A DNA stretch of 64,000 nt from Planotetraspora kaengkrachanensis (GTDB lineage Bacteria; Actinomycetota; Actinomycetes; Streptosporangiales; Streptosporangiaceae), in assembly GCF_016862895.1 (NCBI RefSeq), contig NZ_BONV01000024.1, positions 62,001 through 126,000 of the forward strand, written 5' to 3'. Below are positions 12,014-54,675 of this stretch, one piece after another. Position 1 is the stretch's first letter. Each line of letters opens with the position of its first letter. The translations under genes and the position numbers were made by a program. Under the pieces are notes generated by a model. The model saw only the letters and a list, made by a program, of their open reading frames with translations. It did not search any database and had not been told where the DNA came from.

Positions 12014-13441
12014 ATGGACTTCAAGGTCGCCGACCTTGCACTTGCGGAGTTCGGCCGCAAGGAGATCCGCCTCGCCGAGCACGAGATGCCGGGCCTGATG
12101 GCGACCCGTAAGGAGTACGCCGCCTCGCAGCCGCTCAGGGGCGCGAAGATCATGGGCTCGCTGCACATGACGATCCAGACGGCCGTGCTGATCGAGACGC
12201 TGGTCGCGCTCGGAGCCGATGTCCGCTGGGTGAGCTGCAACATCTTCTCCACGCAGGACCACGCCGCGGCCGCGGTCGTCGTCGGCCCCGAGGGCACCGC
12301 CGACAACCCCTCCGGCGTGCCGGTCTTCGCGTGGAAGGGCGAGACGCTGGAGGAGTACTGGTGGTGCACCGAGCAGGCGCTCGCGTGGCCTGACGGCACC
12401 GGCCCGAACATGATCCTCGACGACGGCGGCGACGCCACGCTCCTCGTCCACAAGGGCGCCGAGTTCGAGAAGGCGGGGGCCGTCCCGGTCGCCGGCGAGG
12501 ACGACCCGGAGGAGTGGGCGATCATCCTCGACACGCTCCGCCGCACGGTCACCGACGAGAAGCGCTGGAGCGCCATCGCCCAGGAGATCAAGGGCGTCAC
12601 CGAGGAGACCACCACCGGCGTGCACCGGCTCTACGAGATGCACAAGTCGGGCCAGTTGCTCTTCCCGGCGATCAACGTCAACGACTCGGTGACGAAGTCG
12701 AAGTTCGACAACAAGTACGGCTGCCGCCACTCGGTGATCGACGGCTTGAACCGGGCCACCGACGTGCTGATCGGCGGCAAGGTCGCGGTGATCTGCGGCT
12801 ACGGCGACGTGGGCAAGGGCTGCGCCGACGCGCTGCGCGGCCAGGGCGCCCGCGTGATCGTGACCGAGATCGACCCGATCTGCGCCCTGCAGGCGGCGAT
12901 GGACGGCTTCCAGGTCACCACCCTGGAGGACGTCGTCGGCATCGCGGACATCTTCGTCACCACGACCGGCAACTTCGGCATCATCACGGCCGAGCACATG
13001 TCGCAGATGAAGCACCAGGCGATCGTGTCCAACATCGGGCACTTCGACAACGAGATCGACATGGCGGGCCTGACCCGCATCCCCGGCATCGTGAAGAACA
13101 ACATCAAGCCGCAGGTCGACGAGTGGATCTTCCCTGACGGGCACTCCATCCTCGTGCTGGCCGAGGGCCGTCTGATGAACCTGGGCTGCGCCACCGGCCA
13201 CCCCTCGTTCGTGATGTCGAACTCCTTCACCAACCAGGTGATCGCCCAGATCGAGCTCTTCACCAAGACCGACGAGTACCCGGTGGGCGTCTACGTGCTG
13301 CCCAAGCACCTGGACGAGAAGGTCGCCCGTCTCCACCTCGACGCGCTCGGCGTCAAGCTGACCAAGCTGACGAAGAAGCAGGCGGAGTACATCGGCGTGC
13401 ACGTCGAGGGCCCCTACAAGCCCGACCACTACCGCTACTGA
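12014..13441 (+). CDS. ahcY: S-adenosylhomocysteine hydrolase
   Basis: This 475-residue enzyme reversibly cleaves S-adenosylhomocysteine to adenosine and homocysteine, clearing the inhibitor of methyltransferases. Visible signatures are the substrate loop [13 protein letters not shown], the motif [14 protein letters not shown], the NAD loop [13 protein letters not shown] near residue 261 and the C-terminal Lys-Pro-Asp-His-Tyr-Arg-Tyr that reaches the NAD of the neighbouring subunit in this branch. Length and insertions fit the long bacterial/eukaryotic form. The ATG at 12014 follows GGAGGG by about 9 nt. A second AHCY of another lineage lies downstream, across a repeat array. Confidence 0.95.
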
Positions 13442-13455
13442 TCAACCCCCTGGGT

Positions 13456-13777
13456 GTGATCATGCACCACCTCGGGTGAATGCTCGCTGAGCTGCCACAT
13501 CACCGATCGTGATCATGCACACTTTCGTGGAAATGGTGCGTGAGCTGGGGTCATGAGGTTCGTGATCATGCAATGCCGTACGGCCGTGCCCGGTGCGGCC
13601 GAAACGGTGCATGATCACGAACCATCCCACCGCAGCTCAGAGTGGTCGTTGCCGAATCTGTGCATGATCACGCTGGGGGGATGGCCAGGTCATTGCGGAT
13701 AACGCCGAATGCGTGCATGATCACGCGGGTTGTCGGCGGAGGCGGCGGCGGGAATCGAGGAATCTGTGCATGATCAC
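13456..13777. repeat. 53-bp-period repeat array 1 (7 units, orientation flips)
   Basis: Seven copies of a 12-bp core lie between the two AHCY genes. Three read GTGATCATGCAC on the plus strand, starting at 13456, 13509 and 13562 (the last ends in A instead of C). Four read as the reverse complement GTGCATGATCAC, starting at 13607, 13660, 13713 and 13766. Within each orientation block every spacing is exactly 53 bp. Most units also carry CAGSTC 14 bp after the reverse-oriented core, and CGAAY-type bases just before the next core. The last unit abuts the start of the second AHCY gene and contains an in-frame GTG. This array explains the 342 bp without a gene. Function unknown. Confidence 0.9.
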
Positions 13778-13783
13778 GGCGGG

Positions 13784-15013
13784 ATGGCGGAGGCGGGGGA
13801 GCGGCGGATCGGCTGGGCCGCTCGGTCCATGCCCGTGCTCGAGGCCATCGGGGCGAGGTTCGCCCAGGACCGGCCGTTGGACGGGTTGCGCATCGCCGCC
13901 TGCCTGCACGTGACCGCGGAGACGGCGGTCGTCATGGGCGCGCTCAAGGCGGGAGGCGCCGAGATCGCCCTTGCCGCCTCCAACCCGCTGTCCACCCAGG
14001 ACGACGTCGCCGCGGCGCTGTCCACGTACGGCATCGCCGTACACGCTCGGGCGGGCGTGGACCGGGACACCTACTATCGGCACATCCACCAGGCGCTGGA
14101 CATCGCGCCGAACATCGTGCTCGACGACGGCTGCGACCTGGTCAACATCCTGCACACCGAACGGGTCGAACTGCTCGACGAGGTCGTCGGCGGCTGCGAG
14201 GAGACCACGACGGGCATCATCAGGCTCCGTCAGATGGCCGCAGAGAACGCGCTCAGGTTTCCCATGGTCGCGGTCAACGACACCCGTACGAAGCGGATGT
14301 TCGACAACAGGTACGGCACGGGCCAGTCCACTCTCGACGGCATCATGCGGGCCACGAACCTCCTGCTCGCCGGGCGCACGGTCGTCGTCGCCGGCTTCGG
14401 GTTCTGCGGCCGCGGAGTCGCGGAGCGGGCCAAGGGCCTGGGAGCGCGCGTCGTCGTCACCGAGATCGACCCGGTGAAGGCCCTCGACGCGGCACTCCAG
14501 GGGTACGACGTCCAGCCGATGGGGCGGGCCGCGGAGATCGGCGACGTGTTCGTGACGGTCACCGGCAACCGCGATGTCATCCGGGCCGAGCACCTGGCCG
14601 TCATGAAGGACGGCGCGGTCCTCGCCAACGCCGGTCATTTCGACGTCGAGATAGACGTCAGGGCCCTGGAAGAGATGGCCCAGACCGTACATTTCGGGAT
14701 TCGCCCGAACACTGACGAGTACGTCCTGGACAACGGCAGACGGCTGCTCCTCCTCGCGGAGGGCCGCCTGGTGAACCTGAGCGCCGCCGAGGGGCACCCG
14801 GCGGCGGTGATGGACATGTCCTTCTCCGCCCAGGCGCTCGCGGTGGCGTGGCTCGCGCAGGAGGCGGCCGGGCTCACCCCCGGCGTCTACGACGTCCCGC
14901 CGGAGGTCGACGTCCAGGTGGCGAGGCTGAAACTGGGAGCGGCGGGCATCGAGATCGACGCCCTCACCTCCGAGCAGGAGGACTACCTGCACTCCTGGCG
15001 GGTCGGTTCCTGA
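13784..15013 (+). CDS. Second adenosylhomocysteinase, archaeal/Thermotoga-type
   Basis: This 409-residue paralogue of AHCY shares the catalytic motifs (NDTRTKRMFDNRYGTGQST, NAD loop GFGFCGRGVAERAKGLG, and EGRLVNLSAAEGHP) but lacks the long-form insertion and ends SWRVGS, without the C-terminal Lys/Tyr extension of the upstream gene. The opening (WAARSMPVLEAIGARFAQ, then LHVTAETA) and the end (EQEDYLHSWR) resemble the shorter archaeal and Thermotoga-type enzymes. Some of these accept related nucleosides, so the exact substrate is open. The ATG at 13784 fits family length; an in-frame GTG at 13766, lying inside the last repeat unit and preceded by GAGGA, would add VHDHGG. Direct adjacency to ahcY is notable. 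Confidence 0.85.
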   Translation: MAEAGERRIGWAARSMPVLEAIGARFAQDRPLDGLRIAACLHVTAETAVVMGALKAGGAEIALAASNPLSTQDDVAAALSTYGIAVHARAGVDRDTYYRHIHQALDIAPNIVLDDGCDLVNILHTERVELLDEVVGGCEETTTGIIRLRQMAAENALRFPMVAVNDTRTKRMFDNRYGTGQSTLDGIMRATNLLLAGRTVVVAGFGFCGRGVAERAKGLGARVVVTEIDPVKALDAALQGYDVQPMGRAAEIGDVFVTVTGNRDVIRAEHLAVMKDGAVLANAGHFDVEIDVRALEEMAQTVHFGIRPNTDEYVLDNGRRLLLLAEGRLVNLSAAEGHPAAVMDMSFSAQALAVAWLAQEAAGLTPGVYDVPPEVDVQVARLKLGAAGIEIDALTSEQEDYLHSWRVGS

Positions 15014-18614: not shown

Positions 18615-18732
18615 GTGCATGATCACGAACTCCATCTTCCCAGGTCAGCCCACTTGATCGCGAACTTGTGCATGATCACGCCAGGAGTAATGCCAGGTCA
18701 GGCGGCCAGCCCGCGAGCCTGTGCATGATCAC
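18615..18732. repeat. 53-bp-period repeat array 2 (3 units)
   Basis: Three copies of GTGCATGATCAC start at 18615, 18668 and 18721, exactly 53 bp apart. The first two units carry CAGGTC 14 bp after the core, in the same register as in arrays 1 and 3. All three have one orientation, reading GTGATCATGCAC downstream of the minus-strand MoxR gene. The array fills most of the 179-bp gap between MoxR and DUF58. Function unknown. Confidence 0.88.
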
Positions 18733-28809: not shown

Positions 28810-29327
28810 AGGTTGGCCAATTCTCATGCTGACCGCCAGGACACACCTGTGTGACCTTCACCCTAGATCCCTCCAGCTCACCTGGAAGAAGGAGTGCGCC
28901 GCGCGCGGGGATTCCATCGTCGAGTGATCGTTCTCGGCGGTGTACGGGATCGTTGCAACATCACAGACAGTGATCGTTTGGCGGATCTCCTGGCTGACAT
29001 TCGGCGCGGCAAGGACTAGCGTGCAGACATGGCACCCGTCCGGGTCCGTGGTTGCACCGGGCCTCTCTCCCTCGGGGGATCGGCCTGGCTAGCCGATGCC
29101 AGCCGCAGGCAAAACGGTCCACGTAAGGCGACTCTTGGTCGACCGATCACGGTGCGGCTTAGAGGTAAGTCCTGCCTTCCCGGGGGTCCAGATGTCCCCC
29201 GCAAGAAGAGAAGGGCAGTAGTGGCGACTGAGCTGCGAACCCCTCAGCAGGCGGATGTGGGGACGAAGACCAGGTCGGACGGGCGGGTGCCGCGGAACCA
29301 CAGTCGATATGCGAAGGGGGGCTTTGT
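28810..29327 (+). promoter_or_regulatory. Long leader region of hpf
   Basis: This 518-bp region has no convincing gene. A possible sigma-70-type promoter, CTGACA (28994-28999), 17 bp, TAGCGT (29017-29022), would give an hpf transcript with a leader of about 300 nt. That leader contains short inverted repeats, for example ATCGGC at 29079-29084 pairing with GCCGAT at 29092-29097. A small frame from 29221 overlaps the hpf start out of frame, without evidence that it is translated. I could not match the leader to a riboswitch class from memory. Confidence 0.35.
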
Positions 29328-50889: not shown

Positions 50890-52845
50890 ATGGTTGAGGA
50901 AGGCGCTCTGCTCTGGGAACCCACGCCGGAGATCGTCCGCGATGCTCGGGTGACTCGTTTCGCCGACCGGCTCGGCCGGTCCGGGACCTACGAGGACGTG
51001 TGGAAGTGGTCGGTCGACAGTCCGGCTGATTTCTGGACGTCGGTGTGGGACTACTTCGGCGTCGTGGGGGAGCGTGGTGACGGGCCCGTCATCAGTGGAA
51101 CGATGCCGGACGTCCAATGGTTCGCCGGATCCACCGTGAATTACGCCGCCAACGCGTTGCGCGGCGACGCCGACCGCCTCGCCGTGATTTTTCGCGATGA
51201 AGCGGGAAACAGGCGGACGTACACGCGCGGGCGACTGCGCGACGAGGTCGGCCGGGTGCGCGCCGGCCTGGTGAGGCTCGGCGTGGGGCGCGGCGACCGG
51301 GTGGCGGCGTACGTCCCCAACATCCCCGAGGCGCTGATCGCCTTCCTGGCCACCGCCTCACTGGGGGCGATCTGGTCCTCGTGCTCGCCGGACTTCGGTG
51401 CGCCGAGCGTCATCGACCGGTTCACCCAGATCGAGCCCAAGGTACTCATCGCGGTGGACGGGTACCGGTACGGCGGCAAGGCCTTCGACCGCTCGGGCGT
51501 CGTCCGCGAGATCGCGGCCAAGCTGCCCACCCTCTCCGCGACCGTGTGGATCCCCTACCTCGACACCGGGTCGCCCGCGCCCGAGGGCGACCTGAGCTGG
51601 GACGACCTCCGCGGCGAGGCCGGCGAGCTCACGTTCGAGCGGGTCCCGTTCGGGCACCCGCTGTGGGTGCTGTACTCGTCGGGGACGACCGGCCTGCCCA
51701 AGCCCATCGTGCACGGGCACGGCGGGATCGTGCTCGAACACCTGAAGTCGCTCTCCTTCCACCAGAACCTCGGCGAGGAGGATGTGTTCTTCTGGTACAC
51801 CACGACCGGCTGGATGATGTGGAACTACCTCATCGGCGGCCTCCTCGTGGGAGCCACCGTCGTCATGTACGACGGCAGCGCGGCCCATCCCGGGCCGGAC
51901 GCCCTGTGGCGGCTGGCGGCGGAGGAGGGGATCACCTACTTCGGCACGGGCGCGCCGTACATCGTCGCCTCGATGAAGGCGGGGCTGCGGCCCACGGGCC
52001 TGGAGCGGCTGCGGGGGATCGGCTCGACCGGATCTCCGCTGCCGCCGGAGGGGTTCGCCTGGGTCTACTCCGACGTCAAGGCCGACGTCCAGCTCGGTTC
52101 GTTCTCCGGTGGCACGGATGTCTGCACGGGTTTCGTGGGCGGGGTGCCGTCGTTGCCGGTCAGGGCGGGCGTGATCCCGTGCCGGTGTCTCGGCGCGAAG
52201 GTGGAGTCGTTCGACCCGTCGGGCGCGTCCGTCATCGGCGAGGTGGGCGAGCTCGTGGTCACCCAGCCCATGCCGTCGATGCCGGTCATGTTCTGGAACG
52301 ACCCGTCGGGCGACCGGTACCGCGAGTCGTACTTCGCCGACTACCCGGGCGTCTGGCGGCACGGCGACTGGATCAAGCTCAACCCCGACGGGAGTTGCGT
52401 GATCTACGGCCGGTCCGACTCGACCCTCAACCGCGGCGGGGTCCGGATGGGCACCAGCGAGTTCTACCGCGTCGTCGAGCGGTTCGACGAGGTCGCCGAC
52501 AGCCTGGTGATCGACACCGGCAGACTCGGCCAGGAGGGCCGGCTCCTGCTGTACGTCACGCTGGCCGAGGGGAGCACGTTCTCCGACGATCTCGTCGGCA
52601 GGCTCCGGACGGCCCTGCGGAGCGAGCTGTCCCCGAGGCACGTGCCCGACGAGATCCACGAGGTCCCCGGCATCCCCAGGACGTTGTCCGGCAAGAAGCT
52701 GGAGATCCCGGTACGGAAGATCCTCCTCGGCACGCCCGTCGAGCAGGCCGCCAACCCCGACGCCATGGCCAACCCCGAGGTCCTCCGCCACTTCATCACC
52801 ACCCCTGGGGGTGATCATGCAGAAGTTCGTGATCACACCCCGTGA
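50890..52845 (+). CDS. Acetoacetyl-CoA synthetase
   Basis: This protein of about 651 residues belongs to the acyl-adenylate family. The P-loop is VLYSSGTTGLPKPIVHGHGG, the A5-type motif is FSGGTDVCTGF, the hinge is YGRSDSTLNRGGVRMGTSEFY and the acetylatable lysine lies in LSGKKLEIPVRKIL. It should activate acetoacetate to acetoacetyl-CoA for ketone-body or leucine breakdown. The ATG at 50890 gives a normal N-terminus (LLWEPTPEIVRDARVTRF). The last 12 residues (GGDHAEVRDHTP) are encoded by the first unit of repeat array 3 and are not typical of the family. Confidence 0.9.
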   Translation: MVEEGALLWEPTPEIVRDARVTRFADRLGRSGTYEDVWKWSVDSPADFWTSVWDYFGVVGERGDGPVISGTMPDVQWFAGSTVNYAANALRGDADRLAVIFRDEAGNRRTYTRGRLRDEVGRVRAGLVRLGVGRGDRVAAYVPNIPEALIAFLATASLGAIWSSCSPDFGAPSVIDRFTQIEPKVLIAVDGYRYGGKAFDRSGVVREIAAKLPTLSATVWIPYLDTGSPAPEGDLSWDDLRGEAGELTFERVPFGHPLWVLYSSGTTGLPKPIVHGHGGIVLEHLKSLSFHQNLGEEDVFFWYTTTGWMMWNYLIGGLLVGATVVMYDGSAAHPGPDALWRLAAEEGITYFGTGAPYIVASMKAGLRPTGLERLRGIGSTGSPLPPEGFAWVYSDVKADVQLGSFSGGTDVCTGFVGGVPSLPVRAGVIPCRCLGAKVESFDPSGASVIGEVGELVVTQPMPSMPVMFWNDPSGDRYRESYFADYPGVWRHGDWIKLNPDGSCVIYGRSDSTLNRGGVRMGTSEFYRVVERFDEVADSLVIDTGRLGQEGRLLLYVTLAEGSTFSDDLVGRLRTALRSELSPRHVPDEIHEVPGIPRTLSGKKLEIPVRKILLGTPVEQAANPDAMANPEVLRHFITTPGGDHAEVRDHTP

Positions 52846-53215
52846 GCTGCCCACCCCTTGTGTGTGATCATGCACAGGTTCGTGCGTGGAAGCCTTGAGC
52901 TGCGCCGACCCATTTCGTGATCATGCACGGATTCGGTTGCCTGCCGTACGAGCTGGGTGAACACTCTCCGTGATCATGCAGAAGGTCCGAGTGTGCATGG
53001 TCACGCAGCAGAAAAGCACAGGTCGGAGTTGGCCGCGCCGAACCTGTGCATGATCACGCCGGGGAGGTGCGCGGGTCCGGCGGGGTGGCGCCGAATCTGT
53101 GCATGATCACGAGCAGAAGGACCGCAGGTGGAAGGGGCATTCTCCGAACCTGTGCATGATCACGCCGGGGAGGGGCGCAGGTCGGGCGGGGTGGCGCGAA
53201 TCTGTGCATGATCAC
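52811..53215. repeat. 53-bp-period repeat array 3 (9 units, orientation flips)
   Basis: Four units read GTGATCATGCAC (starts 52811, 52864, 52917, 52970; the first and last end in G instead of C). Five read GTGCATGATCAC (starts 52993, 53046, 53099, 53152, 53204; the first has G for A at position 8). All spacings within a block are 53 bp except the last, which is 52 bp. In the reverse block the unit is close to CGAAYCTGTGCATGATCACG plus CAGGTC at a fixed offset. The array joins the 3' ends of two convergent genes and provides coding or stop sequence to both. It accounts for the 366 bp without a gene. Confidence 0.92.
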
Positions 53216-54675
53216 GCGGAGGTGGGGGGGAAGCGGAGGGCGAGGGCGGGGCACATCTCGACGGCTCTGCGGGCCTCGGCGCGCAGCCATGGGGGGACGC
53301 CGCCCTCCTCGACGGCGGGGAAGCCGTGCTGGTCGAGCTTGACCAGCCCGGGCGCGACGTGAGCACAGAGCCCGTGGGCCTGGCAGCGGGACCAGTCGAC
53401 CATCAACCGGGCCTCGCGCGTCTCGGCGGCCGGGAGGGGCAACATCTCGAGCACCGGCCGTCCGCAGGTCCCGTGGACGCGATGCTCCTCCACGTCGTCG
53501 GCGAACGCCTCGAGCGCGGACAGGACGAACCTGGCCGACCCGTCGGGGTGGGAACACGCCCCACGCCCTCGTACGGCCGACGCCGCCCGCCGTACGAGCT
53601 CGATGCCGTGCGTCGAGCCCCCCGACACCTCGGCGACGGCGCGGGCGAGGTCGGGCAGCCCGAGCCGGCAGGGCCCGCACTGTCCCGACGACTGCGCGGC
53701 CAGGTAGTTCGCGACGCGCAGGGTCTCCCCGAGGGGGCAGGTCTCGCCGCCGAGCGGCACCACGATGCCCGCGCCCAGGGACCCGCCGGCCTGCGAGATG
53801 CCGCGGCGGGACACGACCGCCCCGTACGCCTGGGCCGCCGACAGCCAGGCCCCGTGGTACCCGCCGATCAGCACGCCGTCGCCGACGGCCGCCTCGCAGA
53901 GGTCGAGCACGGAGGGCAGCGGCACCCCCGGCGTGACCTCGACGACGGCCGGGAAGACGGCGGAACCGCCGACGGTCAGGAGGGTGGTACCCGGCTCCTG
54001 CACGGTCCCCACCGAGCCGTACACCTCCGGGCCCAGCTCCCCGAGGATGGCGAGCTGGGCGAAGGTCTCGGTGTTGGACAGCAGCGTGGGCAGGCCGTCC
54101 ACGCCGCTGTCGGAGGAGCGGGCCTTGCGCCCGGGCGGAATGCCCGCCTGGCCGTTCACGGCCTTGACGAGGGCGCCGCCCTCGCCCGAGATGAACCGCT
54201 CCGGTATGGGGGCGACGCGGACGGCGTCCTGCGCGCCCCGCTCGGCGACGGCGGCCGTCATGGACGCCTCCGCCATTTCACCCGCGGCCACCGCGACCAC
54301 GACCTGCCGGGAGTTCAGCGCGCGTGCCGCCAGCAGGGCGCCCTCCAGGACGAGGTGGGGAGCCCGGGTGAGCAACATCTTGTCCTTCACACTGGCGGGC
54401 TCGCCCTCGGCGCCGTTGACCAGCACGACCGTCTCGGAGGCGCGGGCGCGGGCGGCGACCGCGCGCAGCTTGCGCGCGAACGGGAAGGCCGCGCCGCCCC
54501 GTCCCCGCAGGTCGACGTCTTCCGCCATCGAGATGAGCGTGTCGACGGACTCGGTGCCGAGTTCGCCGTGGATGGAGCGATGGGTGTCGAGATCGAGCCT
54601 GCGGTGCTGGTCGAGCCCGGCCGTGAGCCGTGCCGGGCCGAGTCGTCTGATCTGGGACACGCGATAGGGAATCAC
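53212..54675 (-). CDS. NuoF-like flavoprotein fused to a C-terminal ferredoxin domain
   Basis: This protein of about 487 residues has the NuoF-type FMN/NADH fold with DLRGRGGAAFPFARKL (from residue 56) and NGAEGEPASVKDK, an SLBB-like region (GTTLLTVGGSAVFPAVVEV), a Fe-S helical domain with SGQCGPCRLGLPDLARAV, and a C-terminal ferredoxin-like part with WSRCQAHGLC and MCPALAL. NuoE and other complex I subunits are absent. The upstream gene is a cytochrome-b-like membrane protein overlapping by 4 bp, so the pair probably moves electrons between NAD(P)H or ferredoxin and membrane haem. GGAGG precedes the GTG at 54675. The stop TGA lies in the last unit of array 3. Confidence 0.82.
   Translation of the reverse strand: MIPYRVSQIRRLGPARLTAGLDQHRRLDLDTHRSIHGELGTESVDTLISMAEDVDLRGRGGAAFPFARKLRAVAARARASETVVLVNGAEGEPASVKDKMLLTRAPHLVLEGALLAARALNSRQVVVAVAAGEMAEASMTAAVAERGAQDAVRVAPIPERFISGEGGALVKAVNGQAGIPPGRKARSSDSGVDGLPTLLSNTETFAQLAILGELGPEVYGSVGTVQEPGTTLLTVGGSAVFPAVVEVTPGVPLPSVLDLCEAAVGDGVLIGGYHGAWLSAAQAYGAVVSRRGISQAGGSLGAGIVVPLGGETCPLGETLRVANYLAAQSSGQCGPCRLGLPDLARAVAEVSGGSTHGIELVRRAASAVRGRGACSHPDGSARFVLSALEAFADDVEEHRVHGTCGRPVLEMLPLPAAETREARLMVDWSRCQAHGLCAHVAPGLVKLDQHGFPAVEEGGVPPWLRAEARRAVEMCPALALRFPPTSA

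Follow-up and report, generated by a model that had tools for sequence, protein, structure and literature searches.

The closest described systems to the repeat arrays reported here are REP elements and their RAYT transposases. REPs are GTAG-tagged imperfect palindromes of 20–40 nt present in more than 100 extragenic copies per genome, and, as described by Nunvar 2010 (PMC2817692), the enzyme gene is framed by inverted REPs, with repeat and enzyme varying together. In TIRtrons, the gene of a tyrosine transposase (RAYT-like) lies within inverted repeats that may recur elsewhere in the genome (PMC3733652). The part of a further source that gives REP counts for three Actinomycetota genomes lists them without enzymes (PMC12306157). 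The antitoxin AbiEi and Rv2827c have an N-terminal winged helix and bind inverted repeats of 23 bp located at the promoters of their own genes (PMC7319586). The MTES_1575/DUF559 (Vsr-like) nucleases were not linked to dispersed repeats in the open full-text literature searched. DNA uptake sequences resemble the arrays too: their motif is short, differs in dialect between lineages and occurs in inverted pairs.

The system described here resembles REP/RAYT in its many extragenic copies, in an enzyme gene lying inside inverted copies and in the covariation of repeat and enzyme. The REP copy number of more than 100 per genome was reached in Planotetraspora, with fewer copies in G410 (22) and G487 (29). 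It differs from REP/RAYT and from TIRtrons in its enzyme, an AbiEi-like plus PD-(D/E)XK nuclease protein in place of a Y1 transposase (PF01797) or a RAYT-like tyrosine transposase, and the Planotetraspora repeats are direct tandem 53-bp units in two opposed blocks in place of alternating palindromes, the unit itself being non-palindromic and without GTAG. It shares the AbiEi-like two-domain part with the antitoxins of type IV toxin–antitoxin systems, but here this part is fused to a nuclease domain and the sites are dispersed genome-wide. The earlier note knew of no described element with this design, and no described match was found. In the open full-text literature, whose coverage leaves out most subscription journals, no paper contained the 12-mer and none joined "repetitive extragenic" with DUF559 or "REP elements" with Vsr; among the matches listed, AbiEi/DUF559 nucleases and dispersed repeats were not joined. 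The framing of the gene of a probable nuclease by the arrays' own repeats, in this genome and in distant relatives, points to a new nuclease–repeat partnership which resembles REP elements without being them.

The reported array lies in the 64-kb window, that is, the whole stretch of DNA analysed (G000:C24:62001-126000). The arrays of the window and the neighbours of the reported array are as follows, with '>' and '<' denoting the two core orientations.

13456..13777, both strands: second array, '>' cores at 13456, 13509 and 13562 (the last with one mismatch) and '<' cores at 13607, 13660, 13713 and 13766
18615..18732, − strand: third array, a '<' block of three cores at 18615, 18668 and 18721
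50890..52845, + strand: left neighbour, AMP-binding (acyl-CoA synthetase-like) gene, whose frame extends into the first array unit
52811..52981, + strand: '>' block of the reported array, four GTGATCATGCAC-type cores at 52811, 52864, 52917 and 52970 (steps of 53, 53 and 53 bp)
52993..53215, − strand: '<' block of the reported array, five GTGCATGATCAC-type cores at 52993, 53046, 53099, 53152 and 53204 (steps of 53, 53, 53 and 52 bp)
53212..54675, − strand: right neighbour, NuoF-like (Complex1_51K) gene, with its stop inside the last core

All nine units described previously, four in one direction and five reversed, were found at their positions, and the steps of 53 bp with a last step of 52 bp were reproduced. 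The two blocks meet at a 23-bp step. The core was present in every unit, but it was identical only in six of the nine, with one mismatch each at 52811, 52970 and 52993. The convergent orientation of the flanking genes was borne out by the purpose-written gene caller, and the stop codon of the NuoF-like gene (TCA, 53212–53214) sits within the last core. Allowing up to two mismatches, the window contained 24 core matches against 4.1 expected, a number reached in 0 of 100 shuffles; this excess was due to the second and third arrays, which bring the total in the window to three with the reported one. The second array separates two adjacent + strand genes (12014–13441 and 13784–15013), both matching S-adenosyl-L-homocysteine hydrolase.

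In the 8.77-Mb genome (G000), the genome-wide scan proposed in the earlier note returned 652 exact copies of the 12-mer GTGCATGATCAC and 0 of its reversed control. The survey of arrays covered a contiguous 824 kb, 40 kb from G022 and 80 loci, each at most 8 kb long, that had been selected for holding arrays. With an array defined as two or more cores and genes called by a purpose-written codon-usage script, 121 arrays were obtained. The proposed 53-bp spacing held in this sample: same-strand steps, which were not de-duplicated, measured 53 bp in 405 of 446 cases and 52 bp in 19. The order '>' then '<' was seen in 60 of 61 multi-block arrays, and 60 arrays had a single block. No array (0/121) lay within a called gene, and this, the regular pitch and the framed nuclease gene distinguish the arrays from DNA uptake sequences.

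The expected bias to intergenic 3′ ends was found, but convergent pairs made up only part of the sample. Among the 112 arrays with both neighbours called, the neighbours were convergent in 45 cases, tandem in 54 and divergent in 13, and the other nine arrays were at sequence ends; the convergent share was 45/112 for arrays versus 75/441 for intergenic gaps of at least 50 bp. The outer array edges adjoined 114 gene 3′ ends versus 53 gene 5′ ends. Of these 3′ ends, 86 lay between −4 and +30 bp relative to the stop codon; in 28, the TGA of the core itself served as the stop. For the reported array, the core had been described as always reading in the sense direction outward from the 3′ end of either flanking gene; over all arrays the link to gene 3′ ends is a preference but not a rule, with 53 edges abutting 5′ ends. 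Single-block tandem arrays faced a 3′ end in 19 cases and a 5′ end in 9, and the polarity relative to genes is therefore a bias only.

Across 392 units, the sense unit reads C-GTGATCATGCAC-RGRTTCG-N14-YGASCTGSG, with a weaker C.C ahead of the next core. Couplings between positions of these units were strongest between neighbours or with the same position of the next unit, a pattern that is as expected of a DNA site which would be bound by protein. The earlier note had named REP/BIME-like elements and a transcript-end structure among the nearest concepts. REP/BIME is the best functional analogy, but for this genus an RNA structure at transcript ends is unlikely, because no helix-like run of Watson–Crick excess was found in the covariation of the 392 units. 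RNA structure was rejected for this reason and because 52700–53300 contained no terminator-like site and the Rfam scan matched no RNA family at the arrays. The sole match of that scan was a raiA RNA (Rfam RF03072, 149.7 bits) on the + strand at 29035–29287 of the window.

The cores are conserved between species. In the comparison with Planotetraspora mira (G125), both flanks of 11 of the 13 arrays in the G000 stretch were found in the G125 stretch, and cores were present at each of these 11; the reverse comparison gave 11 of 12. Ten of the 11 orthologous arrays were used for the identity count, the array at 100204 being excluded for its uneven placing in G125. In these, identity was 95.2% (681/715) in the cores, 89.0% (161/181) in TTCG, 78.0% (276/354) in the middle element, 59.6% (750/1259) in the spacers and 82.2% of 2025 positions in the flanks, so that the unit conservation which the earlier note had asked about is clear for cores versus spacers. 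The number of units varies between species at conserved array positions. Copying of whole units was not visible in Planotetraspora, because the inter-unit spacers are mostly unrelated.

The repeat occurs in dialects. Five genomes of the genus, G000, P. mira, P. phitsanulokensis (G104), G022 and P. thailandica (G077), had 997, 1016, 459, 1038 and 1194 sites at one mismatch, respectively, with reversed controls of 4–8. In P. thailandica the core has switched in a concerted, genome-wide manner to GTGATCATGCAG-AASTTCG. At the gene-proximal end of one array of this species (L098 3016–3120), extra units CCCCCTTGGGC-ATGATCATGAA stand at a spacing of about 22 bp, which is the main pitch in G367. Of 341 family genomes, 18 contained a TGATCATGC pair at about 53 bp, in several cases as a single match that looks like chance; among class genomes the count was 5 of 394. 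The core CGTGATCATGCA is common to other actinomycete families. It was enriched in 8 of the 394 class genomes, with reversed controls of 0 and 0–8 copies in all others; G000, G369, G428, G575, G367, G487, G410 and G119 contained 612, 288, 287, 100, 35, 29, 22 and 20 copies, respectively. The extensions of CGTGATCATGCA are lineage-specific: ATCCCGCCACCC, SRTCYTGGGS, CGCCAGCGCA, CGTTCGCCC and GTTGTTGTYTCGACC in G369, G428, G575, G487 and G410, respectively. Hairpin forms of the repeat occur in G410 and G487.

The pitch differs between lineages as well. It is mainly 22 bp in G367, where an 18-unit one-way array of 22-bp pitch was also seen after a polyprenyl synthase-looking gene (L241 9884–10269); it appears mixed in G369 (33–58 bp and one of 92 bp) and is mixed in G428 (32–35, 43–47, 53–57 and 64 bp). 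The mixed pitches of G428 are helically phased: 45 steps gave a best period of 10.4 with a resultant of 0.62, and 0 of 2000 jittered sets were as high, while distinct pitches only gave a period of 11.1 and a resultant of 0.49. In genus g65 the pitch was 53 bp in 19 of 28 steps, 52 bp in 2, 54 bp in 4 and 106 bp in 3. In this genus (L208–L213, L261–L263) the units differ by position, the outermost being CGTGATCTTGTAGTTTGTCGCA, and in L210 the two innermost units make the palindrome CGTGATCATGCAATTGCATGATCACG.

A search for array-framed genes in distant carriers returned one recurrent gene, encoding an AbiEi-like/PD-(D/E)XK protein. It stands in the arrangement '>>> gene <<<' in G428, G575 and G487, and beside an array in G367. 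The copy in this genome lies outside the window.

G000:C58:39897-40862: nuclease gene, whose product is AbiEi-like in its N-terminal part and has a PD-(D/E)XK domain (MTES_1575/DUF559) at the C-terminus

The protein has about 320 aa in Planotetraspora and carriers and about 300 aa in G428, G575 and G487. Its likeness to the MTES_1575/DUF559 nucleases lies in the C-terminal domain, which in G000 reached 41.6 bits with PF18741 (MTES_1575) against a cut-off of 38.2; the nucleases of L258 (the G000 gene, at 1489–2454), L259 and L261 exceeded the cut-off, while six others and four more nucleases fell below it with E-values of 3e-08 to 0.0018. E, D and ExD residues are conserved in this domain. The AbiEi-like part matched PADLOC AbiEi models down to 1.6e-16; with the Pfam AbiEi models, the G000 nuclease was below and the G428 nuclease above the cut-off. 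Carriage on viruses or plasmids was considered and rejected: a search of plasmids and phages with the G428 nuclease was negative, viral_contigs contained neither of two DNA patterns, and query A2 had no relative there.

Profile A1, built from the nucleases of G428, G575, G487 and G367 (43–46% identity), was run on 25 genomes at E ≤ 1e-10. There was one match each in G000, G022, G077, G125, G059, G119, G163, G168, G037 and G003, two to seven matches in each of ten genomes from other families, and none in G104, G065, G139, G031 and G046. The broad protein family is frequent, being found in 238 of 394 actinomycete genomes at E ≤ 1e-25 with query alignments that include carrier proteins. Seven of the eight carriers were among the ten best genomes of the class-wide search; the query contains those seven proteins, so this was not counted as a test.

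The nuclease gene is framed by the repeat of its own genome in Planotetraspora and four other families. The '>' and '<' units in the local dialect numbered 6/5, 4/3, 4/3 and 5/4 in G000, G022, G125 and G077, and 4/2, 4/3, 3/2, 4/3 and 4/6 in G369, G428, G575, G487 and G367, respectively; in G000 the inverted units on both sides are mostly at 53-bp pitch. Sparser framing was seen in G163 and G168 (one or two copies) and in G410 and G395 (short '><' plus '<' copies). In G119 the gene is framed by the version CGTGATCTTGTA. In G415 and G401 it has one inverted copy per side, beginning GCTGATCATGCA, and CGTGATCATGCA is otherwise scarce there (2 and 0 copies, a count that does not cover the GCTGATCATGCA version). 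The homologue in G037 has no flanking repeats.

As a control, the 735 genes called in the contiguous 824 kb of Planotetraspora sequence included none that was framed within 600 bp. Other framed genes do occur: at least two in G000 (L247, L248), two in G369 (L182, L240) and five among the 80 array-selected loci (L041, L064, L065, L070, L102). The nuclease is set apart from these by its recurrence across families and by framing where the repeat is otherwise rare. An HTH gene lies between arrays in L064. A short rho-like paralogue was also seen, with arrays on both sides of its gene pair, in P. sp. A-T 1434 (L101 6039–7154) and P. mira (L109 5965–7152). This paralogue was set aside as repeat partner without a search, the nuclease being the gene that recurs in distant carriers.

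In genus g65, the gene was present in all three array genomes searched, of five with the TGATCATGC pair; G065, G139, G097 and G166 gave no nuclease match (five candidates scored in each of the last two), and none of them has the pair. The neighbours of the gene, compared by tblastx of the flanks and named by eye, were P450-like and GDP-mannose 4,6-dehydratase-like genes in four Planotetraspora and three g65 genomes, as read there other genes than the AbiEii (DUF1814) toxin of a type IV AbiE operon, and DUF349-like and relA-like genes in G428, G367, G415 and G401. These shared neighbours indicate that, within these families, the nuclease gene has been passed on at a fixed position over genus-level time.

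The framing was also tested at homologues: the 30 best class-wide hits were scored for inverted repeats no more than 500 bp from the match. A locus passed when it scored above all 60 of its dinucleotide shuffles and at z > 5. Inverted flanking repeats passed at 21 of the 30 loci and the direct-orientation control at 2 of 30. Eight of the 21 passing loci belong to the genomes that suggested the idea, and 13 of the 20 previously unseen loci passed. Among the nine that failed, G003 and G398 are near contig ends and their test windows were misplaced; the G003 homologue (L265 690–1030, 1949–2078) has unrelated tandem repeats, of 34 bp upstream and 31–32 bp downstream. At 14 weaker loci, 8 passed in inverted and 9 in direct orientation, several being hairpins. 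The shuffle null was adopted after the outcome of a first null, made from flanks of loci from different families, had been seen: 0/30 inverted and 1/30 direct scores exceeded its 99.9% level, and it contained a few very high scores (99% level 16, 99.9% level 101, maximum 120).

The repeats at these homologues are often unrelated to TGATCATGCA, for example CGCTCGCGGGTCAC (21-bp pitch, G629), GTTGATTCCTCCCTCGTGGCGG (G669) and CTCGCGAGAGAC (G635). When 100 kb around the gene was sampled, the G629 repeat turned up in another array and the G414 repeat once more, and the G615 and G635 repeats were seen at the gene alone. On a tree of 33 of the 35 proteins (the other two, from G069 and G398, lacked a usable frame), the TGATCATGCA-type label required 2 changes versus 11.3 in shuffles, none of the 500 shuffles being as low; the label is partly confounded with host family, the labels were assigned by eye, and that of G345 rests on framing below the shuffle-test limit.

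Two genomes hold arrays without the framed gene. No homologue was detected in P. phitsanulokensis, where 92 of 120 candidates were scored. Its 459 near-cores compare with the 997–1194 of its four congeners, and its exact-core fraction was 0.53 (62 units) versus 0.73 (82), 0.69 (70) and 0.76 (17) in G000, G125 and G022, respectively. This deficit has the sign that maintenance of the sites by the enzyme would give, although the effect is modest and concerns one species; the many good cores without a detected gene indicate slow decay or another protein binding the cores. The main exception to the nuclease–repeat pairing is P. sp. A-T 1434 (G059), which the genome collection assigns to another genus: arrays are abundant (526 pairs), and the sole hit is a divergent nuclease paralogue. 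This paralogue (L266 1415–1480, 2456–2518) has on each side a hairpin of 62–63 nt beginning TCGATCATG, the two being 92% alike.

What has to be explained is the arrays with their polarity, pitch and conservation, the dialects, and the framing and synteny of the gene. The best explanation, to which we give a probability of about 0.7, is that the reported array is one cluster of cognate sites, dispersed over the genome, for a chromosomal nuclease that is probably site-specific; this would be a REP/RAYT-like partnership with an unrelated enzyme. The arrays might instead be sites of a nucleoid, insulator or roadblock-termination protein unrelated to the nuclease, with the gene among them by chance. 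The strict pitch, the core conservation and the convergent and 3′-end biases would suit such a protein, as would the framing of other genes and the arrays kept by P. phitsanulokensis and P. sp. A-T 1434 without a framed orthologue; we nevertheless regard it as unlikely, since one gene family is framed in five families with differing dialects, is framed in G415 and G401, where other copies are nearly absent, and has homologues framed by unrelated repeats.

That the repeats solely autoregulate the nuclease, dispersed copies being decoys or regulatory sites of other genes, has a precedent in AbiEi and Rv2827c, which autoregulate through the inverted repeats upstream of their own genes (PMC7319586). 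It is improbable given repeats downstream of the gene as well, the preference for gene 3′ over 5′ ends and the roughly 1000 near-core sites in most congeners. Self-marking, in which dispersed sites would label the chromosome as self and the nuclease would attack DNA lacking them, accords with the nuclease domain, the dense dispersed sites and the dialects; a framed gene in genomes where the repeat is rare (G415, G401), or was seen in the 100-kb samples at the gene alone (G615, G635), makes it very improbable. REP/REPIN elements driven by a RAYT are scarcely credible: dispersed inverted copies and the hairpin forms would fit, but 13 of the 15 carriers gave no PF01797 match (G077 and G119 had 4 and 3, respectively), which contradicts this candidate barring a missed divergent transposase, and the GTAG tag is missing and the nuclease occupies the framed position.

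Under the cognate-site explanation, nuclease binding, cleavage and enzyme-driven spread of the repeats are what we infer. The AbiEi-like part would bind CGTGATCATGCA, and sites in phase (53 bp is about five turns) in face-to-face blocks could favour the assembly of several enzyme molecules. If these nick or cut the DNA in or next to the sites, repair might then add, remove and spread units, and such changes would be tolerated mainly between genes and near stop codons. The enzyme–repeat pair would act like REP/RAYT with an unrelated enzyme, and it is inherited in place. With somewhat less confidence than in the cognate-site explanation itself, though still on balance in favour, we propose a large, undescribed actinomycete class in which the dispersed repeats are generated and maintained by the enzyme whose gene they frame, an AbiEi-like/PD-(D/E)XK nuclease in the place of a RAYT transposase, with recognition sequence and pitch (21–22, 32–35 or 53 bp) set per lineage and from one framing pair to about 1000 sites.

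If this is true, REP-like elements arose at least twice with unrelated enzymes, and an enzyme framed by its own dispersed repeats would be a general genomic strategy. A common, uncharacterised nuclease family would gain a repeat partner, and with it many natural protein–DNA recognition pairs would become available. Why genomes keep REP-like repeats would also become testable, by comparing P. phitsanulokensis with its congeners and G065 and G139 with G163 and G168.
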